From the NCBI GenBank assembly GCA_017552985.1, contig JAFZNO010000087.1, forward strand, positions 30,948 through 94,947: a stretch of 64,000 nucleotides of DNA, given 5' to 3'. This document shows, in pieces, positions 1 to 64,000 of this stretch. Position 1 is the stretch's first letter. Each line of letters begins with the position of its first letter. The position numbers and the translations under genes were made by a program. The DNA comes from Lachnospiraceae bacterium (GTDB lineage Bacteria > Bacillota > Clostridia > Lachnospirales > Lachnospiraceae). The notes below the pieces were generated by a model. The model was given only the letters and a program-made list of their open reading frames with translations. It made no database searches and was not told the DNA's origin.

Positions 1-2
1 TT

Positions 3-320
3 TTCCTGATCTGGAATCATTATTCCGAAAAGGCCAGGGATGCCGTGGTGAAGATCGTTCAGGCGAAGGGACCGGAGCAGGCGCCCGCTAGCGAGGTGGA
101 CGCGCTGAGCAGGGAACTCAACGTTGTTTTTTATTCAAAGCCAAATTTGAAGTTCCGTTTTACGGAAGTTTCCGGAAACTATGAGAGTGAGAACGGAGAG
201 TATCGGAAGCTATACGATGAATTCGTGGAAACGCTTACAACAGTAGACGGAAAATGGATCGGAGCGCTCTTCGACGGACAGGAAAAAATGGCAAAAAGCG
301 TGGAAAACATGGTAAAATAA
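3..320 (+). CDS. 3' end of an unidentified protein (partial)
   Basis: The reading frame is open from the left edge of the window to a TAA at 318-320, so the gene starts outside. The first in-window GTG (45) has no ribosome-binding site and is not a convincing start. About 105 residues are visible: hydrophilic, without signal peptide, membrane segment or cysteine motif, ending in a charged helix. I do not recognise the family. It lies 70 bases upstream of the helicase-like coiled-coil gene, in the same direction, and could share its operon. Confidence concerns the presence of a gene, not its role. Confidence 0.6.
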   Translation, partial: FLIWNHYSEKARDAVVKIVQAKGPEQAPASEVDALSRELNVVFYSKPNLKFRFTEVSGNYESENGEYRKLYDEFVETLTTVDGKWIGALFDGQEKMAKSVENMVK

Positions 321-390
321 AGTTCTCTTTTTGACGATATATTTTATGGTGGCTTTAAATTTCAAGCGGGGGGGAAACAAGGGAGGAACT

Positions 391-2394
391 ATGGCAGAAG
401 AAAAGATTGTTGACACCGAGGAAATTTTAAAAAGCTTATTTGAAAAAGAGACTGCAGCAAAGGGAAAATTCCTGGAGGACGTGAGCTACGTTCATGAGAA
501 CGTGCAGCAGGGTAAGTTCTCCAGGCGGGATTATCTTTGCGATGATCTATACAGGTATTTGGAGCAGGTGGATCCCAAGAGCGGTAAGGCACCCATGCCT
601 GGACGCAACGTGGTTTTGGACGGGGAGAATCTGGATGCTGACTTTTTGACGTTAAACGAGATTTTGTCGTTGGAGAACGCGCCCTTGGGAAAATGGCCCG
701 CAAAGACCAATAATACCATTTGGCAGCAGATTGACGTGAATCTTTCCGTCGCAAAGGGCGAAGGCGTGGCATTCGAGGAGACGGGAAGGTTTGTCGCCGC
801 AAAGGAAAAGACGGAAGCGGACAAGGTTGCCGTTTTGAAGGAGCTTCTTGTCAACAACGTGGTTGAAAGGGCGGTTCTTCTTGCAAATTATGACAAGCCG
901 GACGACGCTTTTGAGGGTTTTAAGTTCTATCATGGCGAGGAGACGAACAATGCTTACGCAGAGTATCCGTCAAAGTGGTACATGCTTAGGAATGACGCCT
1001 TGAATAATTATTCCATGATGTTCTCTTCAGAGGACGGAGCGGCATTGGAAAAGCTTTGCAAGGACTTAAAGGATCATGAGAAGACCCTGGGAAGACTGGC
1101 GGCAACGCTTGGCAGTGACGCAGAGCGAAAGGCCTTTTATGAGAAGGTCCTGTTGCCGGAAGTGGAGGAGTTCCGCAAAGCAGACGTGGCGGGGGACCGT
1201 ATTCCGAAATATGCAAAGGCAAGGGAAGCTTTTTTGGCACAGCTGAAGGTCGTACAGGACCTGCAGGCAGAGCTTGGCGGGCTTCAGAAGGCATTTGTCA
1301 AAAACTACAAGGAAGAAAAGCTTGCGCAGAAGAATCTCAAGGAGGCAGAGGCCGCAATTGAGCATTGTAAGCGTGAGATTGAGAATGGCGAGAATACGAA
1401 GAAGCCCCTGATGGAGCAAAGAGATAAGCACAATGCCGATTATGAAGAGCTTCTCCAGCATTTGGAAGAGGTTGGCGCGGCAGCCCAGCAGGCAAAGAAC
1501 GAATGGACCAAGTATAATGACGTGATCCGCACGGGCTTTGACAAGGAGAGAGAACTCCGTGCTTCCGTCAATCCGATGATGAAGATTCTTCAAAAGAAGA
1601 AGTATGACGCCGTAATGGAGCAGGCAGATCAATGCTCGAAGGAAGCGATTGAAGCCCAGGAGAAGGCTCCGGCAGCGGAGAAGAAAATGAAAGAACTTGC
1701 CGGCCAGTATCAGGAGCTGACGGAGGTGCAGGAAAAGATCCAGGGCAATCAGGCCATCGTCACCGACAAGATCACGAAGCTGACCAAGGCCATCAATGCG
1801 GCAAAGCAGCAGATGACGCTCAAGGAAGAAGAAAGAGAGCAGGCGAAATTCCATCTTGAGGCCGTTGAGAAAGAGCGGAAGGGACTGCTGGAGCAGTGGT
1901 CGAAGGAAAAGGGTGAAGACCAGAGAGTCCTGTTGGATATGGATTTCGTGAAGGAACTGTTGTCAAAGGACGCGAAGGTTTCCGGAAAGCGGGTTGCCCA
2001 GAATCCTTGGTTTAACCAGAAATACCAGAAGGAGCGCGAAAAGCTCTTTGCCCTTGCCATTGAACTCCATCATGCGTTTATCAGCGCCTCGGAGTGCTGC
2101 AATGCCAATCTGGCAACGCTTGCGCAGGTTTGGGGTTACTGGAAGAAGGGCAAAGAAAAGATCAACTTCCATCAGGCTGACAGGGAAGAGACCGCGCCGA
2201 TCCTATGGCAGACGCTAGCCTTGTTTGTTCCCATGATCGCAGTGGATCTTCCGAACGTGGGAGAATTCTTTGCGGATGCAAAAAAGACCGGCCTGATTGG
2301 TTTGCTGGCGCTGGATGAAGCAGATGCTACGTCGCCGCAGAAGGTGATCGGCGCAATCTATCGCAGCCGGAAGGCAGTGGCATTCAAGAAATAA
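391..2394 (+). CDS. Coiled-coil protein with a truncated superfamily-1 helicase-like C-terminus
   Basis: The start at ATG 391 is set by GGGAGG seven bases upstream; the longer frame from 331 lacks a site. The product is 667 residues. Residues about 280-530 are Lys/Glu/Gln-rich heptads and should form long coiled coils. The last 110 residues resemble DNA2/NAM7-like helicases from the segment before Walker B through a LALDEADATSPQ stretch, where those helicases have a LIDEAGQA.PQ motif. The protein stops 15 residues later, exactly where the next helicase motif (GDP.Q) would begin. No Walker A motif is visible, so ATPase activity is unlikely. A terminator follows at once. It may be a helicase-derived structural protein or a decayed gene. 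The helicase resemblance is from memory of the family, not an alignment. Confidence 0.65.
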   Translation: MAEEKIVDTEEILKSLFEKETAAKGKFLEDVSYVHENVQQGKFSRRDYLCDDLYRYLEQVDPKSGKAPMPGRNVVLDGENLDADFLTLNEILSLENAPLGKWPAKTNNTIWQQIDVNLSVAKGEGVAFEETGRFVAAKEKTEADKVAVLKELLVNNVVERAVLLANYDKPDDAFEGFKFYHGEETNNAYAEYPSKWYMLRNDALNNYSMMFSSEDGAALEKLCKDLKDHEKTLGRLAATLGSDAERKAFYEKVLLPEVEEFRKADVAGDRIPKYAKAREAFLAQLKVVQDLQAELGGLQKAFVKNYKEEKLAQKNLKEAEAAIEHCKREIENGENTKKPLMEQRDKHNADYEELLQHLEEVGAAAQQAKNEWTKYNDVIRTGFDKERELRASVNPMMKILQKKKYDAVMEQADQCSKEAIEAQEKAPAAEKKMKELAGQYQELTEVQEKIQGNQAIVTDKITKLTKAINAAKQQMTLKEEEREQAKFHLEAVEKERKGLLEQWSKEKGEDQRVLLDMDFVKELLSKDAKVSGKRVAQNPWFNQKYQKEREKLFALAIELHHAFISASECCNANLATLAQVWGYWKKGKEKINFHQADREETAPILWQTLALFVPMIAVDLPNVGEFFADAKKTGLIGLLALDEADATSPQKVIGAIYRSRKAVAFKK

Positions 2395-2413
2395 AAGCAT
2401 ATTTATGAAGTTT

Positions 2414-2446
2414 GGGTCGCGACTTAAGTCGCGATCCATTCTTTTT
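2414..2446 (+). terminator. Intrinsic terminator after the coiled-coil gene
   Basis: A perfect 9+9 palindrome, TCGCGACTT/AAGTCGCGA at 2417-2434, is extended by three outer pairs and followed by a T-rich stretch (2439-2446). Confidence 0.75.
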
Positions 2447-2470
2447 GAAAAAACGGGGTTTTAGAATCAC

Positions 2471-2499
2471 TTGCAAACGGCCGCAAAAAAAAGTATGAT
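2471..2499 (+). promoter_or_regulatory. SigmaA-type promoter of the diguanylate cyclase gene
   Basis: TTGCAA (2471-2476), a 17-base spacer and TATGAT (2494-2499). The start codon follows 26 bases later with AAGGAGG between, so the leader is very short. Confidence 0.65.
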
Positions 2500-2525
2500 A
2501 ATACTATACACAAGGAGGCGCGGCC

Positions 2526-3584
2526 ATGATGTTTTTCAAAGCGAAAAAGATGACGTATGCGGTGAATACCGTGATCTTGCTGTTGGTGTTTGGACTGATG
2601 GCATTCTTTCACATGGTTGACGCGCCCTTTTTGACTTATTTCAGCATCCCGACGGCAGGAGTCTACGTGCTGGGATATTACCTGATCCATAAGGAACGGT
2701 TAGACGCGTACGTGTGGATGGTATACCTGTGGCTCACGTTCTACATGGGAATTTCCACGGTCTTTTTGGGATATGCCTATGGATTCCATTTATACTGCTT
2801 TTCCATGATTCCCGTCATGTTCGTAACGGAATACCTTTCCATACGGATCAATCGCGAGGGGAAAAAGCAAAAGAGCCTAAAGGCCAGACCGGTAAGTCTT
2901 TTTATCGCGCTGTTTTATCTGATCTGTACGGGTTACGTGGCTTATTTTGGACCGATCTACGTAAGAGACCAGAGCTACGCGGCACTGTTTTGGATCACCA
3001 ATGCCCTGATCGTGTTTGGCTTTTTGATCTTTTATACGGATTACATGCTCAGAATGGTTGTACAGTCAGAAGATAAGCTGCGCGACATGGCGCAGGTGGA
3101 CCGGCTGACGGGGCTTTATAACAGGCACTACGTGATCAGCCGTCTGGAGAATCTGCCGGAGGAGGCGCAAGGGTTCCTTGCCATGGCAGACATTGACAAC
3201 TTTAAGAAGATCAATGATACCTACGGACATAACGCGGGCGACGCCATTTTGCGGGCGATCGCCGACAAGATGCGTGAACTCTGTACGGGCTGTGAGCTAG
3301 CCCGCTGGGGCGGCGAGGAATTCCTGATCTTTGTGGTCAGTGCGGCCGGCTTTGAAAATAATGCGGAGAAAATGTTCGTAAAAGACGGCGTGGATCTGAT
3401 GGAACGCCTGAGAAAAAAGATCGAGGCGGAGCCCATTACGTTTGAGGATCAGCGGATTAACGTCACCATCACCGTTGGCGTGGAAGAGAGAAAACGCGGC
3501 TGTTCCATTGACGAATGGGTGCAGGAAGCGGATAAAAAGCTTTATCTTGGGAAGACTACCGGAAAGAATAAAGTCATCGCGTAG
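2526..3584 (+). CDS. Membrane-bound diguanylate cyclase (GGDEF)
   Basis: A 352-residue protein that should make c-di-GMP from two GTP. The first ~180 residues form about six hydrophobic helices, a membrane sensor without a family name I can give. The GGDEF domain follows: DRLTGLYNR, then DIDNFKKINDTYGH for metal and substrate binding, then the active-site loop RWGGEEF (residues 260-266). The GGEEF form is a normal active variant. The RxxD inhibitory site normally just before the loop is absent, so product inhibition by that route is unlikely. AAGGAGG precedes the ATG. It has its own promoter; the lipoprotein gene follows after 34 bases. Confidence 0.88.
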   Translation: MMFFKAKKMTYAVNTVILLLVFGLMAFFHMVDAPFLTYFSIPTAGVYVLGYYLIHKERLDAYVWMVYLWLTFYMGISTVFLGYAYGFHLYCFSMIPVMFVTEYLSIRINREGKKQKSLKARPVSLFIALFYLICTGYVAYFGPIYVRDQSYAALFWITNALIVFGFLIFYTDYMLRMVVQSEDKLRDMAQVDRLTGLYNRHYVISRLENLPEEAQGFLAMADIDNFKKINDTYGHNAGDAILRAIADKMRELCTGCELARWGGEEFLIFVVSAAGFENNAEKMFVKDGVDLMERLRKKIEAEPITFEDQRINVTITVGVEERKRGCSIDEWVQEADKKLYLGKTTGKNKVIA

Positions 3585-3618
3585 ATTGCGCTGACGACTG
3601 GGTTGAAAGGATGGAAAG

Positions 3619-4308: not shown

Positions 4309-4338
4309 AGTGACGTCGTGAACGATAACGCATGAGTA

Positions 4339-5361: not shown

Positions 5362-5389
5362 TTTTCACCGGCCGCGCGGGGAATAAGAA

Positions 5390-5418
5390 TTGACGAAATC
5401 CCTCCGTAACGATAAAAT
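5390..5418 (+). promoter_or_regulatory. SigmaA-type promoter of the antiporter gene
   Basis: TTGACG (5390-5395), 17-base spacer, TAAAAT (5413-5418), 65 bases before the ATG at 5484. Confidence 0.7.
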
Positions 5419-5483
5419 GAAAGTGATGGTTTGTCATAAAAGGACGGATCAAATTCACTGAGTTTCGTTACGGGGGGATATTT

Positions 5484-7418
5484 ATGCCCAAGAATCGGAT
5501 TGACGACAAGTTCATACAGGACTTTTTTAAGATAGGCGACAGTGAAGAGGACAAGCAGGAACTAGAGGAGATCAAGAAAAAATTAAAGCGCCAGCAATTT
5601 GAGAACGGCAAGGACATTTGCGTCATTGACGGGGAACCGGATTGCATGTATTTCCTGGAGTCTGGAACAGCCATTGTTTTAAGCCGCGAGGGCGAGCAGA
5701 TCAACATCATGCATGAGGGACAATATTTCGGCGAATATGGCGTTTTGTCAAAGCAAAAGCGCCTTTCCACCGTGCGTTCCCTGGGGCGAACCATCGTGTA
5801 CCGCCTGGATGCTGATGACATGATGGACATTTTGTCGCATCATCCGGACCTGTACGGCGAGATGATGAAGCGCGTGTACGGTCAGGTTTCCGGCAAGCAT
5901 TCGCAGATCCTGGCTCTGTCCGGCATGCGCAAGGGCATTCTGCAGCATCCGAAGAACCAGACGCCGCTTTCAAAGCGCCGCATGGTGATCCAATATGGCA
6001 TTCTTGCCTTGATTTATGTTTTGGCGTGGATCTTTGTGCCAAAGGACGCGAATGCGCCGGTTTTCTTGCTTCCGCTGATCCTGATGCTGGTCTACGTGCT
6101 TGTGACAAAGCGTACCGTGGAATCCCTGATCGTCTCCGGCATGCTGGCGGCACTTCTCGTTTACCGGAATGGCATCGCGGCCAGTTACTCTGACGCCATG
6201 ATAGAGACCATGATGGCATATGACAACGTATGGACGGTATACGTGATGGCGTTGATGGGAGGCGTGGTCCAGCTCATCGAAGCTTCCGGCGCGGTGACGG
6301 CCTTCAAAAAACTCGCTGACAGTAAGGTTAAAAGCCAGCGGGGAATGATGCTCACGGCATATGGCATCATGGCGGCAACCTGCATTGACGACGGCCTGAA
6401 CATGTCCTGCGCGGCCAATTCCACGAACGCCGTTGCCAAGGAACAGGCCATTCCGAGAGAGAAGACCTCCCTTCTTTACAGCCTGTTGCCTACGGTGCTC
6501 AGCTCATTTATCCCCCTTTCCCTTTGGGGCATATTCGTTATTGGTACGCTCAGCGCCTCGATCAAGGAGAATCCCGTTGGACTGTTCTGTCAGTCCATTC
6601 CTTTTAACTTTTTCTCCATTTTGGTAGTGATCTTTATGTTACTATACTGTTTTGGCAAGCTTCCCCTGACGAAAAGGCTCAAGAATGCCGACAGGCGAGT
6701 GAAGGAAGGCGGAAAGCTGTGGCCGGATGGTTCGGAAAAGTATCTGAGCTTAAATGAGCCGGAAATGTGGGGCAAGATCATAAACATCATGCTTCCGATC
6801 CTTGTGCTTGCCGTAACTTCACTGGCGATCCGTTCCGTCATTGCCGGGGGATTTATGGTGGACAGCGCGGTAGGACTGACGGCGACGCTGATCTTCATGT
6901 TTTTGTTCTACTGTTGGCAGGGATTGCTCACGCCGGAGCAGTTTGTGGAGCACCTGGTGGTGGGCATTGCAAATTCCACGCTTGCAATTCTTTTGTACCT
7001 TTTGACGATTTGTTTTTCCACGCTTCTTAGCACGCTCCAGCTGACGGAATACTTTGTTGACGCCCTGGAAGCATTTGGCAAGTTTGGTCCCATCTTCCCG
7101 ATGGTCATGTTTTTGCTTGCCATGTTCCTGACCGTTGCCTTGGGTTCCTCTTGGTCCATGTACGCAATCGTTTTCCCGATCGCCGTACACTTTGCCCCTC
7201 TTCTTGGCGTGAATCTCGCGCTTTGCGTGGGTGCCATCGCAGGCGCGGGCATTGCGGGCGAAAAGAACTGTATGTTTACCGCTGACAGCATGAACGTTGG
7301 AACGGCCATAGGATGCGATCCGTATGCGGTCCTTCGGGTTCGCGTGAGATACAGCTTTGTGATCACGGGAATCGCAGCTGCATTCTATTTGGTGGCAGGA
7401 TTCCTTTGTAAGCCGTGA
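5484..7418 (+). CDS. Cyclic-nucleotide-binding domain fused to an NhaC-family Na+/H+ antiporter
   Basis: A 644-residue fusion. Residues about 25-140 form a Crp/EPAC-type cNMP-binding beta-barrel: a GEYGVLSKQKRLSTV segment matches the phosphate-binding cassette (GE...R.STV) with its Arg retained. A basic linker follows, then about twelve membrane helices with the NhaC/ArsB-like pattern, including CIDDGLNMSCAANSTN in a re-entrant position and a Gly/Ala-rich GAIAGAGIAGEKNC segment late in the protein. The role is probably ion or organic-anion antiport gated by a nucleotide ligand; substrate and ligand are inferences. NhaC-family transporters normally lack a regulatory domain. SD GGGGGG precedes the ATG. 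The vsr gene follows after 16 bases, possibly co-transcribed. Confidence 0.8.
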   Translation: MPKNRIDDKFIQDFFKIGDSEEDKQELEEIKKKLKRQQFENGKDICVIDGEPDCMYFLESGTAIVLSREGEQINIMHEGQYFGEYGVLSKQKRLSTVRSLGRTIVYRLDADDMMDILSHHPDLYGEMMKRVYGQVSGKHSQILALSGMRKGILQHPKNQTPLSKRRMVIQYGILALIYVLAWIFVPKDANAPVFLLPLILMLVYVLVTKRTVESLIVSGMLAALLVYRNGIAASYSDAMIETMMAYDNVWTVYVMALMGGVVQLIEASGAVTAFKKLADSKVKSQRGMMLTAYGIMAATCIDDGLNMSCAANSTNAVAKEQAIPREKTSLLYSLLPTVLSSFIPLSLWGIFVIGTLSASIKENPVGLFCQSIPFNFFSILVVIFMLLYCFGKLPLTKRLKNADRRVKEGGKLWPDGSEKYLSLNEPEMWGKIINIMLPILVLAVTSLAIRSVIAGGFMVDSAVGLTATLIFMFLFYCWQGLLTPEQFVEHLVVGIANSTLAILLYLLTICFSTLLSTLQLTEYFVDALEAFGKFGPIFPMVMFLLAMFLTVALGSSWSMYAIVFPIAVHFAPLLGVNLALCVGAIAGAGIAGEKNCMFTADSMNVGTAIGCDPYAVLRVRVRYSFVITGIAAAFYLVAGFLCKP

Positions 7419-7434
7419 CGGATGGGGAGAAAGT

Positions 7435-7926: not shown

Positions 7927-7944
7927 AAATTTTTTTGCATTTTA

Positions 7945-7974: not shown

Positions 7975-8029
7975 CCTATTGAAAGACCAAAATTTTTGAT
8001 TTGGTCGACAATATGGAAAGAGGAGGAGA

Positions 8030-10473: not shown

Positions 10474-10490
10474 GTTATGATGTGAAGATG

Positions 10491-23872: not shown

Positions 23873-23983
23873 ATGGGAGCCTATGTCTGGCCGGGTTTTA
23901 CGAAGGAGATCGTTGAGTCCTATGAGCTGTTGGCAAGCAACCGCACGCGGAACAAAAGTCTCTTATATGCTGCGGCCGGGTAA
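23873..23983 (+). CDS. Possible small protein or gene fragment (36 aa)
   Basis: ATG 23873 follows AAGGGGGGAAAC at good spacing and the frame runs 36 codons to TAA. The peptide begins MGAYVWPGFTKE and ends in YAAAG; no signal or motif is recognised. It uses TAT GTC for Tyr-Val. It could be a genuine small ORF or the stump of a longer gene lost by deletion. The DNA from 23984 to 24084 has no coding potential I can support. Confidence 0.3.
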   Translation: MGAYVWPGFTKEIVESYELLASNRTRNKSLLYAAAG

Positions 23984-24345: not shown

Positions 24346-25047
24346 ATGAGTTTTGTCGAAATCAAGAACGTGAAAAAGCATTACGGCGAGGGCGAGGCCA
24401 GGGCGGCCGTGCTGACGGGCGTGGACCTCAGCATCGAGAAAGGGGAGCTTTGTGTATTGCTTGGTCCCTCCGGAAGCGGAAAGTCAACGCTTCTGAACAT
24501 CATTGGCGGCATCGATGACGCGGACGAGGGGTATGTTGTGATCAACGGGGAAAAGACCGCTGACATGAATGAAAAGAGGCTCACCCAGTACCGCAGAAAC
24601 CACTTAGGATATGTTTTTCAGATGTATAATCTGATCCCGAACCTTACGGTGCGCGAGAACGTGGAGGTTGGCGCGTACCTTAGCAAAAAGCCCCTTAAGG
24701 TTGATGAACTGTTAAAAACCCTTGGCCTTTACGAGCACAGAAACAAGCTGCCGAACCAGCTCTCCGGCGGTCAGCAGCAGCGCACTGCCATTGGCCGCGC
24801 GGTCATCAAGAACCCTGACATTTTGCTTTGCGATGAGCCGACGGGCGCCTTGGATTACAACACTTCGAAGGAAATCTTAGCTCTTCTCGAGCGAATCAAT
24901 CGTGAGTATGGAAACACTATCATCATGGTGACGCACAACGATGCGCTGAAAAACATGGCGGACCGCGTGGTGAAGCTGCGCGACGGCCGCATCAGCCGCA
25001 ATTACCTCAATGAGAAGCGGATGCCCGTTTCTGAGATTGAGTGGTAA
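24346..25047 (+). CDS. ABC exporter ATP-binding protein (MacB/LolD type)
   Basis: A 233-residue ATPase: Walker A GPSGSGKST, Q-loop VFQMYNLIPNLT, signature LSGGQQQRTAIGRA, Walker B ILLCDEPTGALD, H-loop VTHN. The GALD D-loop and sequence style place it with MacB/LolD/FtsE ATPases that power FtsX-type permeases. AAAGGAG precedes the ATG and the permease gene starts 10 bases after its stop. It is controlled by the Mn2+-type riboswitch leader. Tyr-Val is written TAT GTT at 24532 and 24610, against the habit of the window, hinting at foreign origin. Confidence 0.9.
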   Translation: MSFVEIKNVKKHYGEGEARAAVLTGVDLSIEKGELCVLLGPSGSGKSTLLNIIGGIDDADEGYVVINGEKTADMNEKRLTQYRRNHLGYVFQMYNLIPNLTVRENVEVGAYLSKKPLKVDELLKTLGLYEHRNKLPNQLSGGQQQRTAIGRAVIKNPDILLCDEPTGALDYNTSKEILALLERINREYGNTIIMVTHNDALKNMADRVVKLRDGRISRNYLNEKRMPVSEIEW

Positions 25048-25057
25048 GGAGGCGCCC

Positions 25058-27373
25058 ATGAGAAACCCAATGAATCGCAGATACCTTAGGGAACTAAAGG
25101 CAGACTTTGGAAAATATCTTGTGATCTTTTTGTTTATCATCATGGTCGTCTCGGTGGTTTCAAGCTTCCTTGTCGCAAATGCCGGCGTTGCGAAGGCATA
25201 TTATGGCGCCATGGAGAAAAACCATGTGGAGAGCGGCCACCTGGCCTTCAATGTTCGCCCGGACGACGAGCTTTTGGAGCGGATTTCCTCCAAGGCGAAG
25301 ATCACTTTTTATCCGGCGGACTATTTTGAAGAGGAAAACGATGGCGTGACCATGCGCGTCTATCGCTTAGGGAGCGACGTCAATCTCCCGGAACTCATGG
25401 AAGGGCGGCTCCCTGAGGCGCCTGACGAGATCGCCATCGACAATCTGCACTCCTTAAACGCAGGGATAAAAATCGGCGACCGCATTCAGGTCGACGGGCA
25501 TTTGGTGACGGTCACGGGCTTTGTGGCGCTTCCCAATTACACGGCGCTCTTTAAGGACAATGCCGACCTGATGTTTGACATCCAGGGCTTTGGCGTCGGC
25601 GTGATGTCTGAGGAGGGGTTCGATGCGTTTTCCTCCGAGCACGTGACGATCGGATATGCGTGGACATATGATGAAAAGCCCGAAACGGACAAGGAAAAGA
25701 ACGACGCGGCCCAGAAGGTCCTCGAGGCCCTTCGCGAGGAGCTGACTGAGGTCAATACAAAGATCATCATGCGTGCCATGCAAGGCGAGAAGGATCTGAC
25801 CATGCTTGAGGTCACGGACTTTGTGCCGGGCCATGAGAACAAGGCGATCAATTTCGCGGGCGAAGACATGACGGGCGACAGCGCCTCCATCTCCGTTTTC
25901 TTATATATTGTCGTGGGCGTTCTTGCTTTCATTGTGGCCGTGACGACGCTGAATACGCTTTCGAAGGAGGCAACCGTCATCGGAACCCTTCGCGCATCTG
26001 GCTATACGCGCGGCGAAATGATCCGTCATTATCTGGTGCTTCCCTTCGCATCCTTTTTTGTCGGCATGGCAGTCGGGAACCTTTTGGGCTATACCGTCAT
26101 GCGCGATTTCATGCTGGGCGTCTACCGTTCCATGTATTCCTTCGGCAGGGCCGAGACGCTGTGGAACCGGGAAGCATTTCTGAAGACGACGCTGATTCCG
26201 AGCCTGATCATGATCACGATCAATTACGTGATCCTTGCCTGGAAGCTGCGCATCAAACCCTTACGCTTCCTGCGCAGGGAGATTTCGGGCCGCGAAAGAA
26301 AGCGCGCCATGCGCCTTTCCCGCAAGATCCCCTTCACTTGGAGATTCCGCATCCGCATTATCATTCAGAACATGTCCAATTACGTGATGCTGGTCATCGG
26401 CGTGATATTAGCGGGCGCGATCATCATCTTCGGATTAATGTTCCAGCCGCTTCTCGACGAGGTTTCAAGGCGGATCGCGGACACGCCGATCAGCCGTTAC
26501 CAGTATATACTCAAGTCGCCGGAGGATGTTTTGGATGAGGCGGCTGAGAAGTTTGCGCTTGCTTCGTTGGAGACGACGCGCAGGGACTTCAAGACGGATG
26601 AGATCTCGGTTTACGGGGTTTCTGAGGGCAGCCGGTATGTCAAAAAGGAGATTCCCGAGAACCAGGCGCTTTTGTCGAATGGTTACATGGAGAAATATGG
26701 CGTGGAGGAGGGTGATCGCGTCAGCCTTTATGACAAATATGCGGACAAGACTTACGAATTTACCGTAGCGGGCGAATATCCTTACGAGGCTTCCCTGGCG
26801 GTTTTCATGAATTTGGGTGAGTTCAATGAGATGTTCGAGAAGACGCCTGATTACTACAGCGGGTATTTTTCGGACCGCGAGCTGGAGGGCCTGACCGAGT
26901 CCAACGTATACGTGAAGATTGACAGCGCAAGCCTTGGAGGCCTTGCGACGCAGCTTTGGGAGTCCTTCGCGGGCATCATGGGGCCCGTGCGCTGGTTTGG
27001 CGTGATCATGTTTGTCCTCATGGTATATCTTCTCGCCAAGCAGATCATCGAGCGGAATCAGACAAGCATTTCCATGACGAAGATTCTTGGCTTTTCCAAT
27101 GGAGAGATTGGCGGCCTTTATATCGCGTCGACCACCATCGTCGTTGTCGCGAGCCTGTTTTTGGCTATTCCTCTGGTTGACCGGCTTCTTCGCCTAATCT
27201 TCGAAAACTATCTCTATAAGCGCGTGAGTGGCTTCCTGCCTTACTGTGTAAGCAACGACTGCTATGTTAAAATGGTCCTTCTTGGCATCGCAAGCTACGC
27301 TGCCGTCGTGATTCTGCAGCTCCTCAAGATCCGCGCCATCAAAAAGAGCGACGCACTCAAGACGCTAGAGTAA
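25058..27373 (+). CDS. FtsX/MacB-type ABC permease with two FtsX domains
   Basis: The start at ATG 25058 has AAGGAGG five bases before it. The 771-residue protein has an N-terminal helix (FGKYLVIFLFIIMVVSVVSSFLVA), a ~250-residue outer domain, three helices of the first FtsX domain (about 290-400), another helix, a second outer domain and a second FtsX helix set ending LQLLKIRAIKKSDALKTLE. Such permeases do not import; they extrude peptides or drugs or transmit force. The substrate is unknown, though the riboswitch suggests a link to Mn2+. Five Xaa-Val junctions use NAT GTN (25223, 25250, 26525, 26636, 27263). Confidence 0.85.
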   Translation: MRNPMNRRYLRELKADFGKYLVIFLFIIMVVSVVSSFLVANAGVAKAYYGAMEKNHVESGHLAFNVRPDDELLERISSKAKITFYPADYFEEENDGVTMRVYRLGSDVNLPELMEGRLPEAPDEIAIDNLHSLNAGIKIGDRIQVDGHLVTVTGFVALPNYTALFKDNADLMFDIQGFGVGVMSEEGFDAFSSEHVTIGYAWTYDEKPETDKEKNDAAQKVLEALREELTEVNTKIIMRAMQGEKDLTMLEVTDFVPGHENKAINFAGEDMTGDSASISVFLYIVVGVLAFIVAVTTLNTLSKEATVIGTLRASGYTRGEMIRHYLVLPFASFFVGMAVGNLLGYTVMRDFMLGVYRSMYSFGRAETLWNREAFLKTTLIPSLIMITINYVILAWKLRIKPLRFLRREISGRERKRAMRLSRKIPFTWRFRIRIIIQNMSNYVMLVIGVILAGAIIIFGLMFQPLLDEVSRRIADTPISRYQYILKSPEDVLDEAAEKFALASLETTRRDFKTDEISVYGVSEGSRYVKKEIPENQALLSNGYMEKYGVEEGDRVSLYDKYADKTYEFTVAGEYPYEASLAVFMNLGEFNEMFEKTPDYYSGYFSDRELEGLTESNVYVKIDSASLGGLATQLWESFAGIMGPVRWFGVIMFVLMVYLLAKQIIERNQTSISMTKILGFSNGEIGGLYIASTTIVVVASLFLAIPLVDRLLRLIFENYLYKRVSGFLPYCVSNDCYVKMVLLGIASYAAVVILQLLKIRAIKKSDALKTLE

Positions 27374-30846: not shown

Positions 30847-32448
30847 ATGAGGGAAGAGTTCGAAAATCAAAACAATCAGAAGGCAAAAATACGAGTCGTT
30901 GCAATGGCACTTTTGGTGCTGCTTGTCAGCTGTCTGCTTGGCGGGTGTGGTTCTGCCAAAACGAATGGCAAAGATGGATCCACGCAATCTTCCGATGGGA
31001 CGGATGCCCAGACGGGATCGGGGAAAGAGAATGAAGATGAGAAAGCGGAGATCCTGCTGGTATACCGGAGATCGAACTATGCCTGGGGTTTTAATGACAA
31101 TGGATACGTAATTGACACGAAGGGGCGGTTCTACGCATATGACAATGGCTGTCCTCGGCCCTTGGACGGCGATGAGGGCGGAGACATTCTTTCCCTTACG
31201 GAATATTTGGAAGTCATTCTTGAGAATGATCAGGGCGTGCAGGTGTTTGACGAAGAATTTGTTGAAGAGATCTCAAAGCTTGGCGCGGACCTTACTCCGG
31301 AGGATGAGTTTTCGAATGATCACAAAATGTGTGATTACGGTCAGGAAACGATCTATTATTTTAATCCCGTAACGAGGAAGCTTATGAAATGTCAAAGCAC
31401 CGGTGACGTGGATCAGAAGCCCAAGAATAAGAGTGCGGCCAAGATTGTTAAGCTTTTGGAAAAGGCGATCCGAAAGGAAGCGAAACTTGCGAAAGATACG
31501 GATGAAGTACGGGACGTGCCCAAGGTATATTCCATGGGCGAGTGTTTTGAGATGGAATTTGAAGTGAGTATTATAAGTGAGTGGACGGGAAAGTGGATCG
31601 TGAAGGATGCCGATCAGCTTAACGACTTTGCGGCCATGAGTGGAATTAGGGTAAACGAGATCCTGGAGAAGATGAAGGACGCACGCATGGAGTCCCCCGC
31701 GTTCTTTATCACCATAGAAAATGCCGGTAAAGAAAAACAAGTGCAAAATCCCAAAGCCTTTTGGGTGTGCGGTGAATGCTGTGATTTCGTGATTGACAAA
31801 GATAAAACGGAAGCGGCGGATCACTTTTTGTGCCGCGTCGCCGCGGTAAAAGGCAGCGTGCTCCCCGCAGACTTAAATTCCATACGTGATCTGGATGGTC
31901 AGGCATGGAAAGTATATGGTGAAAGCACTGCCCACCGCGAAGTGACCATAGCGGATGATTTAAGCATTGGGCACGTAGAGGACGAAGAATTTGTGGTGAT
32001 GCACGTCGGAGAGGATTACGTGCTTTTGCCTGGCGGAAGCAGGCAAGTGTTTTTGGGAGACTGTGCGGGAGACGTGCAGATGGAAGACGGACAGATTCTT
32101 CGCATTGTGGCGGATGGGGAGATTTATAATGGCGGCGAAGCGGGATTTATGAGGGACGTGTTTCTTGAGAAAGTAAAAGAAACGACGAACGTTACCTATC
32201 AGGAAGCGATCGAGAAAATGGAGTTCCCTGGCACGGAAGGGGCCAGGTTTTGGTGGGGAGAGCACGTGGTCAAGTATTGCGAAGGGGATCACGTTTTCCT
32301 TGTGGCACTCAATCGTGAATACGTTAACGTCTATTTGGACGGAGAACTGGCATTGCGGTATGAATTCGATGAAACAGAAGGAATTCTGACGCCGTTTTAT
32401 GAATATTTGGAAACCAGCAACGGCGACGTTGAATTTTCTGAGGAATGA
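30847..32448 (+). CDS. Lipoprotein of unknown function, probable ECF regulon member
   Basis: A 533-residue lipoprotein with a signal peptide ending in LLGGC (Cys34), a Ser/Gly/Asp linker and a large outer domain with no motif I recognise. The middle (VRDVPKVYSMGECFEMEFEV) and end (NVYLDGELALRYEFDE) look beta-rich. GAGGGAAGGGAA lies before the ATG. An ECF promoter at 30762-30790 suggests that it answers envelope stress. A strong terminator follows, so it is a single-gene unit. Confidence 0.7.
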   Translation: MREEFENQNNQKAKIRVVAMALLVLLVSCLLGGCGSAKTNGKDGSTQSSDGTDAQTGSGKENEDEKAEILLVYRRSNYAWGFNDNGYVIDTKGRFYAYDNGCPRPLDGDEGGDILSLTEYLEVILENDQGVQVFDEEFVEEISKLGADLTPEDEFSNDHKMCDYGQETIYYFNPVTRKLMKCQSTGDVDQKPKNKSAAKIVKLLEKAIRKEAKLAKDTDEVRDVPKVYSMGECFEMEFEVSIISEWTGKWIVKDADQLNDFAAMSGIRVNEILEKMKDARMESPAFFITIENAGKEKQVQNPKAFWVCGECCDFVIDKDKTEAADHFLCRVAAVKGSVLPADLNSIRDLDGQAWKVYGESTAHREVTIADDLSIGHVEDEEFVVMHVGEDYVLLPGGSRQVFLGDCAGDVQMEDGQILRIVADGEIYNGGEAGFMRDVFLEKVKETTNVTYQEAIEKMEFPGTEGARFWWGEHVVKYCEGDHVFLVALNREYVNVYLDGELALRYEFDETEGILTPFYEYLETSNGDVEFSEE

Positions 32449-54873: not shown

Positions 54874-54887
54874 GAGTTAGAAGGTTC

Positions 54888-55595: not shown

Positions 55596-55606
55596 GAGGA
55601 CAAAAC

Positions 55607-58030
55607 ATGAAAGTATTGGATTATCTAAAGGATCACGTAACGTATTTGGACGGCGGCATGGGAACGCTTTTGCAAAAGCGCGGCCTGCAGCCGGGAGAAT
55701 TGCCGGAGCGTTGGAACGTTTCACACGCGGACGTGATCGTTGAAATTCAAAAAGCATATTTTGACGCGGGAACGAATATCATCTGCACCAATACCTTTGG
55801 CGCGAACTCCCTGAAATTTGATGACGAGGAGCTTCAAACCCTGATCCGCGCGGCCGTGGAAAATGCAAAGAAAGCAAGGGAGCTTAGCTCCGGAACGCAG
55901 GAGAAATTCGTTGCATTGGACATTGGCTCCATGGGAAAGCTTTTAAAGCCTTATGGCGATTTTGAATTTGAGGATGCCGTGGAGGTTTACGCAAAGACCG
56001 TGAGGATCGGAGCTGCCTGCGGCGTGGACCTGATCTATATTGAGACCATGAACGACAGCTACGACACGAAGGCGGCACTTTTGGCGGCGAAGGAAAACTG
56101 CGATCTGCCCGTGTTTGTATCCAACGCGTACGGCGAGGACGGAAAGCTCATGACTGGCGCCACTCCGGCGGCCATGGTGGCAATGCTCGAGGGCATGCAC
56201 GCGGATGCGATCGGCGCAAACTGTTCCCTTGGACCGGAGCAGCTTAGGGGCGTCGTGGAAGAGTATTTGGCCTATGCATCCGTTCCCGTTTTGCTAAAGC
56301 CAAATGCGGGTCTTCCGAGAAGTGAAAACGGCCAGACGGTATACGACGTCTTCCCGGAAGAATTCTCTGACGTCATGAAGGGATACGTGGAGGCAGGTAT
56401 CCGCATTGCTGGCGGATGCTGTGGTACCACTCCGGATTACATTGCCGCAACGGTGGCAAAGACAAAGGATCTTGCGCCGAAGGAGATCGTACCCAAGAAC
56501 CGTACGCTGATCAGTTCCTATACCCACGTGGTGGAATTCAAGGATTCCCCGATCCTGATCGGAGAGAGGATCAATCCCACGGGTAAGAAACGGTTTAAGG
56601 AAGCACTTAGAAACAATGACATAGACTATATTTTGGGCGAAGGCCTGACGCAGCAGGAAAAGGGCGCACACGTACTGGACGTGAACGTGGGTCTTCCGGA
56701 GATCGATGAGGTTGAGATGCTGAAGAGGGTTGCCTTTGAATTGCAGGCCATCATCGACCTTCCGCTGCAGATCGACACCACAAACGTGACTGCGATGGAG
56801 ACGGCGCTTCGCCGTTACAACGGCAAGGCCATGATCAATTCCGTAAACGGGAAGGAAGAAGTGATGCGTGAAATCTTCCCTCTTGTCAAGAAATATGGCG
56901 GACTGGTGGTATGCCTTACCCTGGACGAGGACGGCATTCCCGCGGAGGCGGAAAAGCGCGTTGAGATCGCGAAAAACATCATCCGGGTGGCTAAGGAATA
57001 TGGCATTGAGAAGAAAGATTTGATCTTTGACACGCTTGCCATGACGGTTAGCGCGGACAGTCACGCAGCACTGGCGACGTTACAGGCTTTGAACGTCATC
57101 AAGCATGAGCTGGGATGTCATACGTCCCTTGGCGTGTCCAACGTATCCTTTGGCTTACCGAACCGTGAGATCATCACGGCAGCATTCTTCTCCCTGGCTT
57201 TGGAAAACGGCCTGTCAGCCGCGATCATGAATCCGAATGCGGCGGAGATGATGAAGAGTTATTATTCCTTCCGGGCATTGCACGGACTTGACGAAAACTG
57301 CACGGATTACATCGAGAACATTGGAAAATATGCTTCCGTTGCCGCAGCACCTTCACAGACGGCCGGAGCAACGGCGGAGGGCGCAAAGGATTCCGAATTC
57401 CAAAGTGACCTGCAGAGAGCCATTGTAAAGGGCCTTAAGGAGCAGGCAGCAGCACTGACCATAGAACGGTTAAAGACGGAAGAGCCTCTCGACATAGTGA
57501 CTTCTCAGATCATTCCCGCGCTGGATATCGTGGGAAAGGGATTTGAGAAGAAGACCATGTATCTTCCCCAGCTTTTGATGAGCGCTGAGGCATCACAGTG
57601 TGCCTTTGAGCAGATCAAGAATAAGATGGCCAGCAGTTCTTCGGAATCCGTCAGCCGCGGCAAATTCGTGATCGCAACCGTTCACGGAGACATTCATGAC
57701 ATTGGGAAAAACATTGTTAAACTGATCTTGGAAAACTACGGGTTTGAGGTGTATGATCTCGGAAAGGACGTGCCGCCTGAGACCGTGGTGGACGTAGTGG
57801 TAGAACAGCATGCGCCATTGGTAGGGTTAAGCGCGCTCATGACGACGACGGTGCCCGCGATGGAGGAGACGATCAAGCAGCTCCGTGAGAAGGCACCCTG
57901 GGCGAAGGTCATTGTCGGAGGCGCCGTATTGACGCAGGAATATGCGGACAGCATCGGTGCGGATTATTATGCGAAGGATGCAATGGCAACGGTTCGTTAT
58001 TCCATGCAACAGATGGGGCAGCAGGCATAA
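55607..58030 (+). CDS. metH: Cobalamin-dependent methionine synthase lacking the activation domain
   Basis: An 807-residue enzyme transferring methyl from 5-methyl-THF to homocysteine. The homocysteine domain has FGANSLKF and the zinc set GANCS and GGCCGTTP; the pterin-binding domain starts near GERINPTGKKRFKEAL (~320); the cobalamin cap follows, then the B12 domain with ATVHGDIHDIGKN (lower-ligand His) and GLSALMTTT. Classical MetH continues ~330 residues with the activation domain; here that function is the preceding gene. The operon ends in a two-way terminator. Confidence 0.93.
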   Translation: MKVLDYLKDHVTYLDGGMGTLLQKRGLQPGELPERWNVSHADVIVEIQKAYFDAGTNIICTNTFGANSLKFDDEELQTLIRAAVENAKKARELSSGTQEKFVALDIGSMGKLLKPYGDFEFEDAVEVYAKTVRIGAACGVDLIYIETMNDSYDTKAALLAAKENCDLPVFVSNAYGEDGKLMTGATPAAMVAMLEGMHADAIGANCSLGPEQLRGVVEEYLAYASVPVLLKPNAGLPRSENGQTVYDVFPEEFSDVMKGYVEAGIRIAGGCCGTTPDYIAATVAKTKDLAPKEIVPKNRTLISSYTHVVEFKDSPILIGERINPTGKKRFKEALRNNDIDYILGEGLTQQEKGAHVLDVNVGLPEIDEVEMLKRVAFELQAIIDLPLQIDTTNVTAMETALRRYNGKAMINSVNGKEEVMREIFPLVKKYGGLVVCLTLDEDGIPAEAEKRVEIAKNIIRVAKEYGIEKKDLIFDTLAMTVSADSHAALATLQALNVIKHELGCHTSLGVSNVSFGLPNREIITAAFFSLALENGLSAAIMNPNAAEMMKSYYSFRALHGLDENCTDYIENIGKYASVAAAPSQTAGATAEGAKDSEFQSDLQRAIVKGLKEQAAALTIERLKTEEPLDIVTSQIIPALDIVGKGFEKKTMYLPQLLMSAEASQCAFEQIKNKMASSSSESVSRGKFVIATVHGDIHDIGKNIVKLILENYGFEVYDLGKDVPPETVVDVVVEQHAPLVGLSALMTTTVPAMEETIKQLREKAPWAKVIVGGAVLTQEYADSIGADYYAKDAMATVRYSMQQMGQQA

Positions 58031-58071
58031 TGCCCGAAAAGAATAAGCAGAAAGAATAAAGCAAGAAGAAA

Positions 58072-58113
58072 AAGCGTGGTCACGGTTATGGTTCCGTGAT
58101 CACGCTTCTTTTT
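58072..58113. terminator. Bidirectional terminator between convergent genes
   Basis: AAGCGTGGTCACGG pairs with CCGTGATCACGCTT (one G-U pair). T-runs flank it on both strands. The right arm overlaps the last codons of the - strand membrane protein gene. Confidence 0.8.
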
Positions 58114-59570
58114 CCGTAATAAGTGCTGATGGCTTTATTTTCTTCGGCATTGGGATCATCCGTCAGATCCTTCCAGCCGAGGAACCAAGGCCTAATGGAA
58201 TACTGCTTTAGCACGACGTCAGCCTGCTCAGAATGCAACAGGCGCAACCTTTCCTCATATTCCTCGTGGAAGGTCTTGGCCTCGCCCGAGGTGAGATAGT
58301 AATGCGCGCCGTAGGCGGAATACTGTCCGATGCGGTCCGGCGAGATCTTAAAGAAGAAGCACCAGACGAGAAACCAACAGATCAGGACGTACCAGGGAAT
58401 GCGGAAATCCGGTATCTTTGGAAGCATCGTACGGATGACTCCGAAGGCATAGATCATGTTGAGAAGAAGCACAAACTGGAACGTGATCTTGATCAGGTTG
58501 ATGCTGCGGGAAAGATCATTCGCACCGGTCCCGTAAAGGCCTGGCGTGCAGGTGGAAGCATACAGGCAGAAGGACCAAACCGCAACGATGGGAAAGATCC
58601 AAAGGCGGAACTGGACCTTGTCCGTTTTGACCAAACGCCATACGACGGGGATCAGTAAGGCATACAAAAGCAACGTACGCCAATCCAGAAATTCACGCGC
58701 AAAGCGAATGGCTTCGGGGAAGGAACGAAGGATCGCCTGGAAGGGCGGCAATGCGCGGCCGACGTAGTAGGCAGCCCGGACCTGATTGCCGGGGGCGGAT
58801 ACGTTGAGATAAAAGCCTATGCAATAAGCCAACATGGAGGGTAACCACAGAAGGGCCCTTTTGTTCTTAAAGATCAAGGCGAGTGCAAAAACCGTGAGAA
58901 CTATGAGCGGCGTCTGTAAGGCGGTGATAAAATTGGCGCCCGCAATAAAGAAAGCCAAGGGGATGCTGACCGCGATGCCAAGAAGGGTCAGCCATTTCTT
59001 TTTGCCGCCGTAAAGAATTGCCAGCAGCAGGGATAGATAAAAGAGCTTGAAAGAAAACATCCCTACGTAGTGGACGCCGCCATTATACCAATAAAAGCCT
59101 TGTTGCGGCGTGTAGAGCAAAAGAATAACGATGGTGGCGGTGCCGGACTGCATTCCCAGCATGGACCAGACGTCGCCCTGGAATACCTTTCGCACGATGA
59201 CCCCGAGAAAGGTGAAAATGGAGGCGGCCAGCACGGTGATCAAAAACACGGGACCCAGGAAATAATACTGTTCGCCAAAGATCATCGGCACCAGGCCCAT
59301 CATAAAGATGGAACCATAGGTTCCCTGCCAGGAATAGTGGCAGGTAATCGCGTTTTGGATCGCACCGGAGATGGCAGCCTTGAGCGTGGAACCGCCCCAC
59401 GTATAGGTAACCCAAACAGGCCTTGCGTAATTATAATCATCATAAAACGGGATGGCGTACTGCGTCAGTACGTAAAGCGGCACAAGACAGGTCAAAAGGA
59501 TCAGCGTGAGAAATATGGCGTGCAGCTTGTCACTCAGTCCCCAGGCAATGATTTTTCGAACGTATTTCAC
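58086..59570 (-). CDS. Large polytopic membrane protein (DUF6056/GtrII-like)
   Basis: The start is GTG at 59568-59570, eight bases after GAGGAGG on the - strand; the longer frame has no site. The 494-residue protein has about eleven membrane helices, an early YDDYNYARP loop after helix 1 (acidic DD as in GT-C-type glycosyltransferases and DUF6056) and a soluble C-terminal ~80 residues. It may be a glycosyltransferase or carrier for surface glycans; this rests on topology and the acidic loop only. All its Xaa-Val junctions follow the ACGT rule, on the - strand too. Confidence 0.65.
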   Translation of the reverse strand: MKYVRKIIAWGLSDKLHAIFLTLILLTCLVPLYVLTQYAIPFYDDYNYARPVWVTYTWGGSTLKAAISGAIQNAITCHYSWQGTYGSIFMMGLVPMIFGEQYYFLGPVFLITVLAASIFTFLGVIVRKVFQGDVWSMLGMQSGTATIVILLLYTPQQGFYWYNGGVHYVGMFSFKLFYLSLLLAILYGGKKKWLTLLGIAVSIPLAFFIAGANFITALQTPLIVLTVFALALIFKNKRALLWLPSMLAYCIGFYLNVSAPGNQVRAAYYVGRALPPFQAILRSFPEAIRFAREFLDWRTLLLYALLIPVVWRLVKTDKVQFRLWIFPIVAVWSFCLYASTCTPGLYGTGANDLSRSINLIKITFQFVLLLNMIYAFGVIRTMLPKIPDFRIPWYVLICWFLVWCFFFKISPDRIGQYSAYGAHYYLTSGEAKTFHEEYEERLRLLHSEQADVVLKQYSIRPWFLGWKDLTDDPNAEENKAISTYYGKRSVITEP

Positions 59571-59682
59571 GGAAGAAACCTCCTCAAACGGTAAAATGGA
59601 ACAAACAAAATATAACACATATCCAGATGCTTGGCAACCACTCCGGCAGCCGGAAGGTGTTTTGCCGCGTCGCGCGGGAGAA

Positions 59683-59711
59683 TTGTCATGATGGACAAAA
59701 CATGCTATAAT
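59683..59711 (+). promoter_or_regulatory. SigmaA-type promoter of the GGDEF-EAL gene
   Basis: TTGTCA (59683-59688), 17-base spacer, perfect TATAAT (59706-59711). Confidence 0.65.
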
Positions 59712-59779
59712 ATGTCAGAATGCTTTTGCCGGCAATGGGACGGAAGCATAAGTTCTTGATAATCAAGGATAAAGTGGTG

Positions 59780-62272: not shown

Positions 62273-62280
62273 AGCGTTAC

Positions 62281-63246
62281 ATGAAGGAAGGCAAGGAGAA
62301 AGCGCCTAGAAACAAAACCATTGATTTTTCCCTGGACAGTGCGGAGGGTAAGAAATACCGGAAGCGGATCATGGAGATGCCCAAGGATGCCGTGGAATTA
62401 AAGACAGTTTTGGACCAGACCATTTGCGGGGACAGCTTTGCGGTCATGGACAGGTTGCCGCGCGGCTTTGTGGACCTTCTGATCGTGGATCCGCCCTACA
62501 ATCTGGAAAAGGATTATCACGGCAACAAATTTAAGGCGGAGAGCCATGAAGCATACAAGGCATATACAAGGAGCTGGCTGGAAAAAGCACTGCCGCTCTT
62601 AAAGCCGACGGCATCCGTTTACGTATGCTGTGACTGGAAGAGTTCCCTGGTGATCGGTGAAACGTTGCACGAGACGCTAAAGGTGCAAAACCGCATTACC
62701 TGGCAAAGGGAAAAGGGCCGCGGCGCCCAGGCAAACTGGAAAAATGGCATGGAAGACGTGTGGTTTGCAACAGTTGGAAAAACCTATACCTTTAACCTGG
62801 ATGCCGTCAAGATCCGCAGGAAAGTGATCGCGCCATACAAGATTGACGGCGTGCCGAAGGACTGGGAGGAGACGGAGGAGGGGAACTATCGAAACACCTG
62901 TCCCTCCAATTTCTGGGATGACGTGTCCATCCCTTATTGGTCCATGCCGGAGAATACGGCGCATCCGACGCAAAAGCCGGAAAAGCTTATGGCAAAGCTC
63001 ATTTTGGCAAGCAGCAGGGAGGGCGACGTAGTGTTCGATCCCTTCGCCGGATCAGGAACCACGGCCGTGACGGCTAAGAAGCTTGGACGTCATTTTGTGA
63101 CGGTTGAACAGAATGAACTATATTGTGCCTGGGCGCAAAAGCGCTTGGAGATGGCAGAGGAAGATCCCGCCATCCAAGGGTACCGTGACGGGATTTTTTG
63201 GGAGAGAAACTCGTGGGCGAAGCAAAAGAAGATGCCCAAAAACTAG
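62281..63246 (+). CDS. Site-specific DNA methyltransferase, beta-class N6-adenine type
   Basis: A 321-residue methyltransferase in beta order: motif IV VDPPYN (Asp70-Asn74) comes first, then a recognition region with WQREKGRGAQANWKN and EDVWFAT, the HPTQKPEKL segment, and motif I VFDPFAGSGTT (251-261). DPPY favours N6-adenine over N4-cytosine. The recognition region reminds me of the RsrI-type family, but the target cannot be read off. No restriction enzyme gene is adjacent, so it is an orphan or partner-distant enzyme. It is not a C5-cytosine enzyme and cannot be the direct partner of the Vsr protein. Confidence 0.88.
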   Translation: MKEGKEKAPRNKTIDFSLDSAEGKKYRKRIMEMPKDAVELKTVLDQTICGDSFAVMDRLPRGFVDLLIVDPPYNLEKDYHGNKFKAESHEAYKAYTRSWLEKALPLLKPTASVYVCCDWKSSLVIGETLHETLKVQNRITWQREKGRGAQANWKNGMEDVWFATVGKTYTFNLDAVKIRRKVIAPYKIDGVPKDWEETEEGNYRNTCPSNFWDDVSIPYWSMPENTAHPTQKPEKLMAKLILASSREGDVVFDPFAGSGTTAVTAKKLGRHFVTVEQNELYCAWAQKRLEMAEEDPAIQGYRDGIFWERNSWAKQKKMPKN

Positions 63247-63261
63247 GGCGGGAGGAACAAC

Positions 63262-63798
63262 ATGGTAATTGAAAAGCATGAAAAGATTACGCAAGAAGAA
63301 GCAAAGGAAATCACCATATTAATGGCAAATGCCAGACAGTTGATGAGAGATCCAATGAAAAAACTGTCGGACATGTTTTCGTTTTGCCTGAAAGCCTGTA
63401 TTTTTGGTAGCATTGGGCTCGTTCTTTGCGTCCTGCTCATCATCTTTGGCGACGCGGATCTCTACGTGATCTTATGCATGGGCGTGATGATTGCCATGCT
63501 TCTCATGGTTTTCGTATACTACAGAAGCATGCGCAAGCTATACCTGGATTTGATCAATCAGGCAAATGATCACGTTACCATCACGCTAGATGAAGAAGGC
63601 GTGGGTTATGATGACCACGGCACCAAGAAACTCAAGCTTTTCTGGAAGAATATTTCTTTTGTCCGGGCTTTTCAGCACGTCGTCTGCTTCTTCCCCAATG
63701 ACGTCTCCGGCATCATGATCACCATCGACAGAGCCCAGTTCGCTTCAATCAAGCAATTCCTCCAGGAAAATAATATTGACGTCCAAATAATCGACTAA
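63262..63798 (+). CDS. YcxB-like membrane protein
   Basis: A 178-residue protein with two adjacent membrane helices (about 50-72 and 74-92) and a C-terminal ~75-residue domain, YDDHGTKKLKLFWKNISFVRAFQHVVCFF...FASIKQFL, typical of YcxB-like proteins of unknown function. GGGAGG precedes the ATG, 15 bases after the methyltransferase stop, so both may be co-transcribed. Confidence 0.7.
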   Translation: MVIEKHEKITQEEAKEITILMANARQLMRDPMKKLSDMFSFCLKACIFGSIGLVLCVLLIIFGDADLYVILCMGVMIAMLLMVFVYYRSMRKLYLDLINQANDHVTITLDEEGVGYDDHGTKKLKLFWKNISFVRAFQHVVCFFPNDVSGIMITIDRAQFASIKQFLQENNIDVQIID

Positions 63799-63936
63799 AT
63801 CCGCCGCGCTGGCAACATCCGCCGCCGTACCGACGGCATCTGCCTTCCGCGCCTGCGACATTTCCACCACGGCACCAACGGCATACCCCCTTCGGGAACA
63901 ATTAGCCGGCGGCACTTAGTAAACCAGTCGGCTGAA

Positions 63937-63996
63937 TGGAAAATTTCGAGAAATGTTTGAGGAGCTTTAGCTCCGAGTTTTTCTCGAAATTTTCCA
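63937..63996 (+). repeat. Long perfect palindrome, possible repetitive hairpin or terminator
   Basis: TGGAAAATTTCGAGAAA (63937-63953) is the exact reverse complement of 63980-63996. The loop itself contains GGAGC/GCTCC around TTTA (63961-63974). The structure has no clean terminal T-run, so it looks more like a repetitive palindromic element than a plain terminator. The GC-rich 63799-63930 stretch before it holds no gene I can support. Confidence 0.6.
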
Positions 63997-64000
63997 CTCC

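Follow-up and report, generated by a model that had tools for sequence, protein, structure and literature searches.

The 64,000-nucleotide stretch of a Lachnospiraceae genome studied here (hereafter the window; positions 30,948 to 94,947 of contig JAFZNO010000087.1, assembly GCA_017552985.1) carries a predicted gene for a Vsr mismatch endonuclease, and its genes show a context-specific shift from T to C. This shift is strand-symmetric, occurs in coding and intergenic DNA, and co-occurs in nine genomes with one clade of Vsr proteins and with a solitary C5 methylase. We consider it likely that very-short-patch (VSP) repair with a new specificity, acting through this Vsr and this methylase, has biased mutation genome-wide.

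Nearly complete replacement of T by C at synonymous V-Y-G-T sites

Motif sites were defined as synonymous V-Y-G-T positions (V = A, C or G; Y = C or T) together with the complementary Thr codons ACR (R = A or G) before C, G or T. A first-pass annotation of the window had proposed that Asp, Asn, Tyr and His codons (NAY) nearly always end in C before Val (GTN). Genes were called with a custom script in place of a standard gene finder, and in the resulting 46 window genes (58.4 kb) the C:T ratio of NAY codons followed by GT (NAY-GT) was 295:14; before GA, GC or GG the same codons ended in C in only 36–63% of cases, which bears out the remark that T is freely used before other G-starting codons. 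The two genes that had been singled out as examples (given as 391-2394 and, on the minus strand, as 58086-59570; called as in Table 1) obey the rule throughout. The accompanying list of exceptions was essentially right: the 14 NAT-GT sites of the called genes lie at 6015, 21729, 24532, 24610, 25223, 25250, 26525, 26636, 27263, 29932, 36948, 53486, 60944 and 62255, of which 6015 had been missed and 21729 had been entered as 21724, and the TAT GTC at 23882 is readable in the sequence outside the called genes. In the two exporter genes of Table 1, NAC:NAT was 2:2 and 6:5, and the other motif sites were mostly converted (NSC 23:2, ACG 22:1). The bias also reached codons whose second base is C or G, for which NSC:NST before GT was 345:16, and Thr codons before C, G or T, for which ACG:ACA was 416:28.

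The 4-mer count against a codon-shuffled null that had been suggested as a check was carried out by synonymous shuffling, split by phase. No phase-specific 4-mer in the window proved as depleted as ATGT in phase 1 (14 vs. 148.7 expected, z −16.7), and in 288 genes pooled from the window and other stretches of the same genome (315,675 bp, without the short loci L038, L039 and L046 and without L036, whose removal was unnecessary) it was found 100 times against 752 expected (z −34.5). These z values, together with the opposite bias of congeners of similar GC, leave virtually no room for chance or plain base composition, for which nothing speaks but the usual GC3 variation within the genus. The pooled C:T ratios before GT were 1441:100 for NAY, 888:65 for NCY and 809:63 for NGY, and no C preference was seen for NTY (600:639). 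An explanation through queuosine-containing transfer RNAs (tRNAs), which would concern NAY codons only, was rejected because NCY and NGY codons shift too.

In the pooled genes ATGT stood at 0.13 of its shuffled value in phase 1, against 0.90 and 1.24 in the other two phases, where T-to-C changes replace an amino acid (Met by Thr or Cys by Arg); this accounts for the depletion in a single phase. One might suppose that ACGT is selected as a functional methylation site, or ATGT selected against as a motif, the more so as ACGT is abundant in this genome (4308 seen vs. 3895 expected) and a methylase is present. However, ACGT is not raised in the other phases (0.65 and 0.62 of shuffled), ATGT is not reduced there, and CTGT and GTGT are converted as well. 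The restriction of the change to phases in which T to C is synonymous points to conversion from T rather than to selection on either motif, which we regard as very improbable.

The same shift on both strands and in intergenic DNA

Since V-T-G-T pairs with A-C-A-B (B = C, G or T) on the opposite strand, a process acting on the duplex must also turn Thr ACA before C, G or T into ACG. The coding shift, taken as the difference in log2(C/T) between the genome's own stretches and 26 loci of unshifted congeners, was +5.8 for AYGT (a change in odds of about 56-fold), +3.6 for GYGT, +3.6 for CYGT and +0.9 for TYGT, and the complementary Thr sites gave, in matching order, +4.6, +3.3, +3.3 and +1.5. Over 56 contexts the shifts on the two strands agreed with r = 0.87, four contexts lacking A/G-side data being entered as zero. 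A purine at position +3, after GT, strengthened the shift on both strands, which was not the case in relatives. The rule as originally worded, from ATGT to ACGT, thus names the strongest context and is too narrow, because GTGT and CTGT are converted too; likewise, the proposed avoidance of Thr ACA before T holds, and it extends to C and G.

For intergenic DNA, 15 kb of the genome were set against 63 kb drawn from 84 loci of congeners, from which seven shifted loci and those under 8 kb had been removed. Of 64 contexts, AYGT, GYGT and CYGT again shifted most, and the ACGT:ATGT ratio was 158:80, compared with 148:548 in relatives. The intergenic ATGT sites that the first-pass annotation had held against a purely mutational cause, five in number, do exist, but ATGT is scarcer than usual in intergenic DNA, which is itself shifted toward ACGT. 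Because the same shift appears on both strands and in intergenic DNA, the process acts on the duplex and runs from T to C, and the motif V-T-G-T-R is read from genome composition.

These results bear on a codon-pair preference at the ribosome, in which NNC-GTN would be favored through tRNA or messenger RNA effects. This alternative was at first favored by the effect being seen in one reading phase only, and it was dropped when the complementary Thr ACR sites proved to shift in a parallel gradient. These sites also share the +3 preference, the same contexts head the intergenic list, and the phase restriction follows from synonymy. On its side, conversion is weaker in intergenic DNA (66% C vs. 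93% in coding DNA), and VYAT contexts also shift in coding DNA (AYAT +2.8) with almost nothing in intergenic DNA, which indicates that a codon-level component exists. Such a component may remain, and as an account of the whole shift codon-pair preference is improbable.

The shift tracks one clade of Vsr proteins

The product of the window vsr gene matched Pfam PF03852 (E 6.9e-27, 93.5 bits, cut-off 27) and NCBIfam TIGR00632 (120.5 bits, cut-off 97.85) and aligned with E. coli Vsr 1cw0 (E 1.2e-14), and from these matches it is assigned to the Vsr endonuclease family. Its residues E36, D62 and H80 align with 1cw0 chain positions 24, 50 and 68, which we take to be, with an offset of one, the catalytic Glu25, Asp51 and His69 of E. 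coli Vsr. At the positions of His64 and of the zinc ligands of the E. coli enzyme, the window Vsr has Asp and non-ligand residues, and CDSEFFHGKDW-like motifs are common to other Vsr proteins of the genus. The missing His64 and zinc ligands are a sub-type difference and not a family-defining one. The gene is flanked by genes for a cNMP-binding/Na-H antiporter protein and an ECF-sigma-like protein, with no adjoining methylase gene.

To compare genomes, the log odds of C in NAY-GT over NAY before other G-starting codons were computed for 97 sampled congeners; at least 10 kb was available for 27 Vsr-plus and 60 Vsr-minus genomes among them (G190, with 1.1 kb, was dropped). Log odds were above zero in 5 of the 27 Vsr-plus congeners and in none of the 60 Vsr-minus ones. 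The first-pass annotation had proposed comparing relatives with and without vsr; the expected absence of bias without Vsr was borne out, but Vsr presence by itself had to be rejected as a predictor, as the 22 other Vsr-plus genomes, when pooled, resemble the Vsr-minus pool (G188 and G172, being partly shifted, were excluded from both pools). In a tree of 60 Vsr proteins, the window Vsr, its near relatives and those of G225, G167 and G194 fell into one clade with support 100/100, and the Vsr of G188 lay outside it, grouping with that of G172. A Vsr at least 79% identical to the window Vsr was found in 9 of 138 genomes of the genus, and all nine show the shift. Three of them (G280, G298 and G306) had been predicted in writing as shifted before they were sampled, and gave log2 odds ratios of 1.4, 3.9 and 3.3; the shift of G280 is partial (AYGT 12:10), and 2.8 kb around its vsr gave NAY-GT 1:4. 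Thirteen genomes with other Vsr proteins were also part of the prediction. In the seven of these that were sampled, short loci around vsr showed no NAY-GT excess of C in G277, G294, G307, G288, G293 and G308, and at the gyrB locus there was no excess in G311 (2:12) and an even ratio in G308 (8:7). These results showed that the shift tracks one Vsr clade and not Vsr in general.

MetH was tried as a species marker and found unsuitable, since its matches split into two divergent groups. The MetH-like product of the window (55607-58030) has relatives above 65% identity in few congeners and relatives of about 40% in most, which suggests transfer or an ancient paralogue.

When other Vsr proteins were scanned for footprints, G187 alone among off-clade Vsr-plus genomes exceeded the threshold (GYCT, from 20 kb), and Vsr-minus genomes passed it too. 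At locus L060 of G187, which has a different Vsr, C is over-represented in GYCT contexts on either strand (+3.5, +3.9), possibly another Vsr footprint.

A solitary C5 methylase with relatives in ACGT-poor genomes

A single PF00145 C5 methylase gene was found in the genome (Table 1). It lies between a DUF436 gene and a murG-like gene (glycosyltransferase-28), without the adjoining restriction gene of a type II restriction-modification system. A methylase at least 85% identical occurs in exactly the nine genomes of the Vsr clade and in no other of the 138. The next relatives, 61–63% identical, belong to G228, G193, G223 and the genome of locus L142; no Vsr match was among the matches listed for the first three, and none was found in the L142 genome either. 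Of the genomes sampled over more than 5 kb, G228, G193 and G223 deviate furthest in the opposite direction in their log odds, and ACGT counts in the four genomes were 2 for 26 expected, 2 for 37, 2 for 65 and 0 for 134. When 168 genomes or loci with 5 kb or more are ranked by ACGT, these are four of the five lowest, the fifth being L145 (8 expected).

Restriction-site avoidance (PMC4687349) would explain these ACGT-free genomes with a related methylase, and it runs opposite to the ACGT-rich genome of the window. In G193 and the L142 genome, the methylase faces a convergent gene for a conserved protein, the two products being 62% identical to each other and, for those tested, without a match in Pfam, NCBIfam or PDB sequences; this protein is plausibly a new restriction endonuclease and the partner of the methylase. 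Our reading is that the methylase family would be ACGT-specific, that with a restriction partner its hosts would lose ACGT, and that the solitary form together with Vsr would make hosts gain it. The functional pairing of methylase and Vsr is what we infer from this co-occurrence.

Table 1. Positions of the genes and of the compositional feature discussed in the text (window coordinates unless a locus is given)
Feature	Location	Strand	Remarks
vsr, mismatch endonuclease of 163 amino acids	7435..7926	+	PF03852 and TIGR00632 matches; probable actor of the conversion
Compositional footprint	1..64000	.	C (or G) at nearly all synonymous V-Y-G-T positions and Thr ACR codons preceding C, G or T
Example gene	331..2394	+	NAY-GT sites ending in C: 9/9
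Minus-strand example gene	58086..59618	-	NAY-GT sites ending in C: 8/8
Two exporter genes (FtsX-like permease)	24346..27373	+	hold 7 of the 14 NAT-GT exceptions
Solitary C5 methylase	G000:C108:36448-37521 (outside the window)		PF00145
Conserved protein of 280-290 amino acids	L331:1333-2211 and L329:605-1444		convergent with putative ACGT-type methylase in two distant genomes with almost no ACGT

Explanation of the shift

The best explanation is an over-running VSP repair of an ACGT methylation system, resulting in biased conversion. The solitary C5 methylase would modify ACGT, and the unlinked Vsr would cut at the T:G mismatch in V-T-G-T, best before a purine, and restore C. It would act on any T:G mismatch in this context, whether from deamination or from replication error, and T would in this way be driven to C almost to fixation at synonymous sites on both strands. 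ACGT as the methylated site, Vsr as the actor and mismatch repair as the route are inferred from sequence. We further lean toward the view that an ACGT methylase derived from a restriction-modification system and an unlinked, relaxed Vsr (V-T-G-T-R, without the E. coli zinc site) together form a genome-wide biased converter, which would have fixed C at nearly every synonymous site in one clade and reversed the composition seen in sister species. The repair or methylation process put forward by the first-pass annotation is now better supported, through the strand symmetry, the intergenic shift, and the specific Vsr clade with its solitary C5 methylase.

Several observations weigh against this explanation. 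Besides the weaker intergenic conversion and the VYAT component described above, the vsr and methylase genes are not adjacent, and this methylase was searched for in the ACGT-poor L145 and L122 and not found. G188 is partly shifted (G172 less so), though its Vsr is off-clade and the methylase is absent from it. The nine shifted genomes seem to be one organismal clade, where gyrB was found, so that any clade-specific gene could be the cause, and the link between Vsr and shift amounts to little more than a single evolutionary event with a held-out check within the clade. Moreover, a set of Oscillospiraceae genomes shows a strand-symmetric shift in AYGT only (353:50 vs. 300:605; complement 69:53 vs. 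60:230), and no Vsr was found in the seven genomes searched, six of which are in the pooled counts.

The single clade and the AYGT-only shift with no Vsr detected would suit another clade-specific repair or replication trait, such as a T:G glycosylase or altered mismatch repair, which caused the T-to-C change and with whose clade the Vsr and methylase hitchhike. A motif of four to five bases is, however, what is expected from a Vsr-type enzyme, and it would then be a coincidence that a specific Vsr occurs together with a methylase whose relatives are found in ACGT-free genomes. We regard this alternative as unlikely and prefer VSP repair.

At the Oscillospiraceae/Clostridia loci concerned (L126, L143, L151, L152, L153, L160 and L168), the symmetric shift of ACGT over ATGT is limited to A before Y, and NAT is preferred before AT. 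A relative of the C5 methylase of the window genome was not found in the searched genomes of these loci.

Poorly converted genes and other features of composition

Over the 204 genes of the genome that had 12 or more informative sites, a median of 4% of motif sites per gene was unconverted. GC tended to be lower where conversion was least complete (r −0.40), which would fit recent arrivals. Two genes (L035:16646-18448 and L048:6918-8306) have 45–50% of motif sites unconverted and a GC of 0.40–0.46, and are possible recent arrivals. In a comparison of close strains, the sister had C at 4 of 5 T sites (G160) and at 2 of 3 (G303), and farther relatives at 0 of 1, which are too few sites to judge turnover. 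In the window, GATC is strongly over-represented (1302 seen vs. 921 expected, counting both strands), and GGCC, CTAG and CACA/TGTG are depleted.

Relation to known systems and significance

In E. coli, the scarcity of CTAG has been ascribed to VSP repair (PMC5337935; Bhagwat and McClelland 1992, to go by its title). E. coli K-12 was tried as a positive control and rejected: CYAG (64:3) is its most extreme context, yet 71 Vsr-minus congener loci gave 1690:68, so that a CYAG footprint is not diagnostic of Vsr. VSP repair tends to remove CTAG in E. coli and relatives (PMC5337935), and the Dcm/Vsr system there resembles the present one in its Vsr-family endonuclease, its C5 methylase and a T:G-to-C:G bias proposed to change oligonucleotide abundance. 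It differs in context, with CTAG (PMC5337935) and CCWGG (PMC12907096) there and VTGT here, where vsr is unlinked and the odds change about 56-fold. In Caulobacter, the solitary C5 methylase ScmA and the unlinked Vsr-like protein VsrA can be functionally linked, a pairing like that proposed here; their motif is YGCCGGCR, and the available part of that report describes no genome-wide compositional footprint, unlike the present case (PMC12907096). The gonococcal enzymes V.NgoAXIII and V.NgoAXIV, whose mutants are described as having a mutator phenotype, have wide specificities and are alike in this relaxation, whereas their contexts are others and their biochemistry is known, as against a genomic footprint here (PMC6116569). 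No description of a VTGT or ACGT footprint of Vsr was found in the literature searches made, at the level of titles and abstract openings.

For E. coli, the debate on whether VSP repair reshapes genomes has turned on the scarcity of CTAG, yet Vsr-minus genomes here show this scarcity too. An effect of about 56-fold that is strand-symmetric, limited to one Vsr clade of a genus and reversed in congeners makes the question directly testable. It also warns studies of codon context that an extreme apparent codon-pair rule can be mutation bias seen through synonymy, and it points to genome composition as a possible guide to the specificity of Vsr enzymes not yet studied. Most likely, in one small group of gut bacteria, a Vsr paired with a DNA methylase continually converts T to C; if this is true, repair bias would be a visible force on genome spelling, and the recognition sequence of an uncharacterized enzyme would be legible from composition alone.

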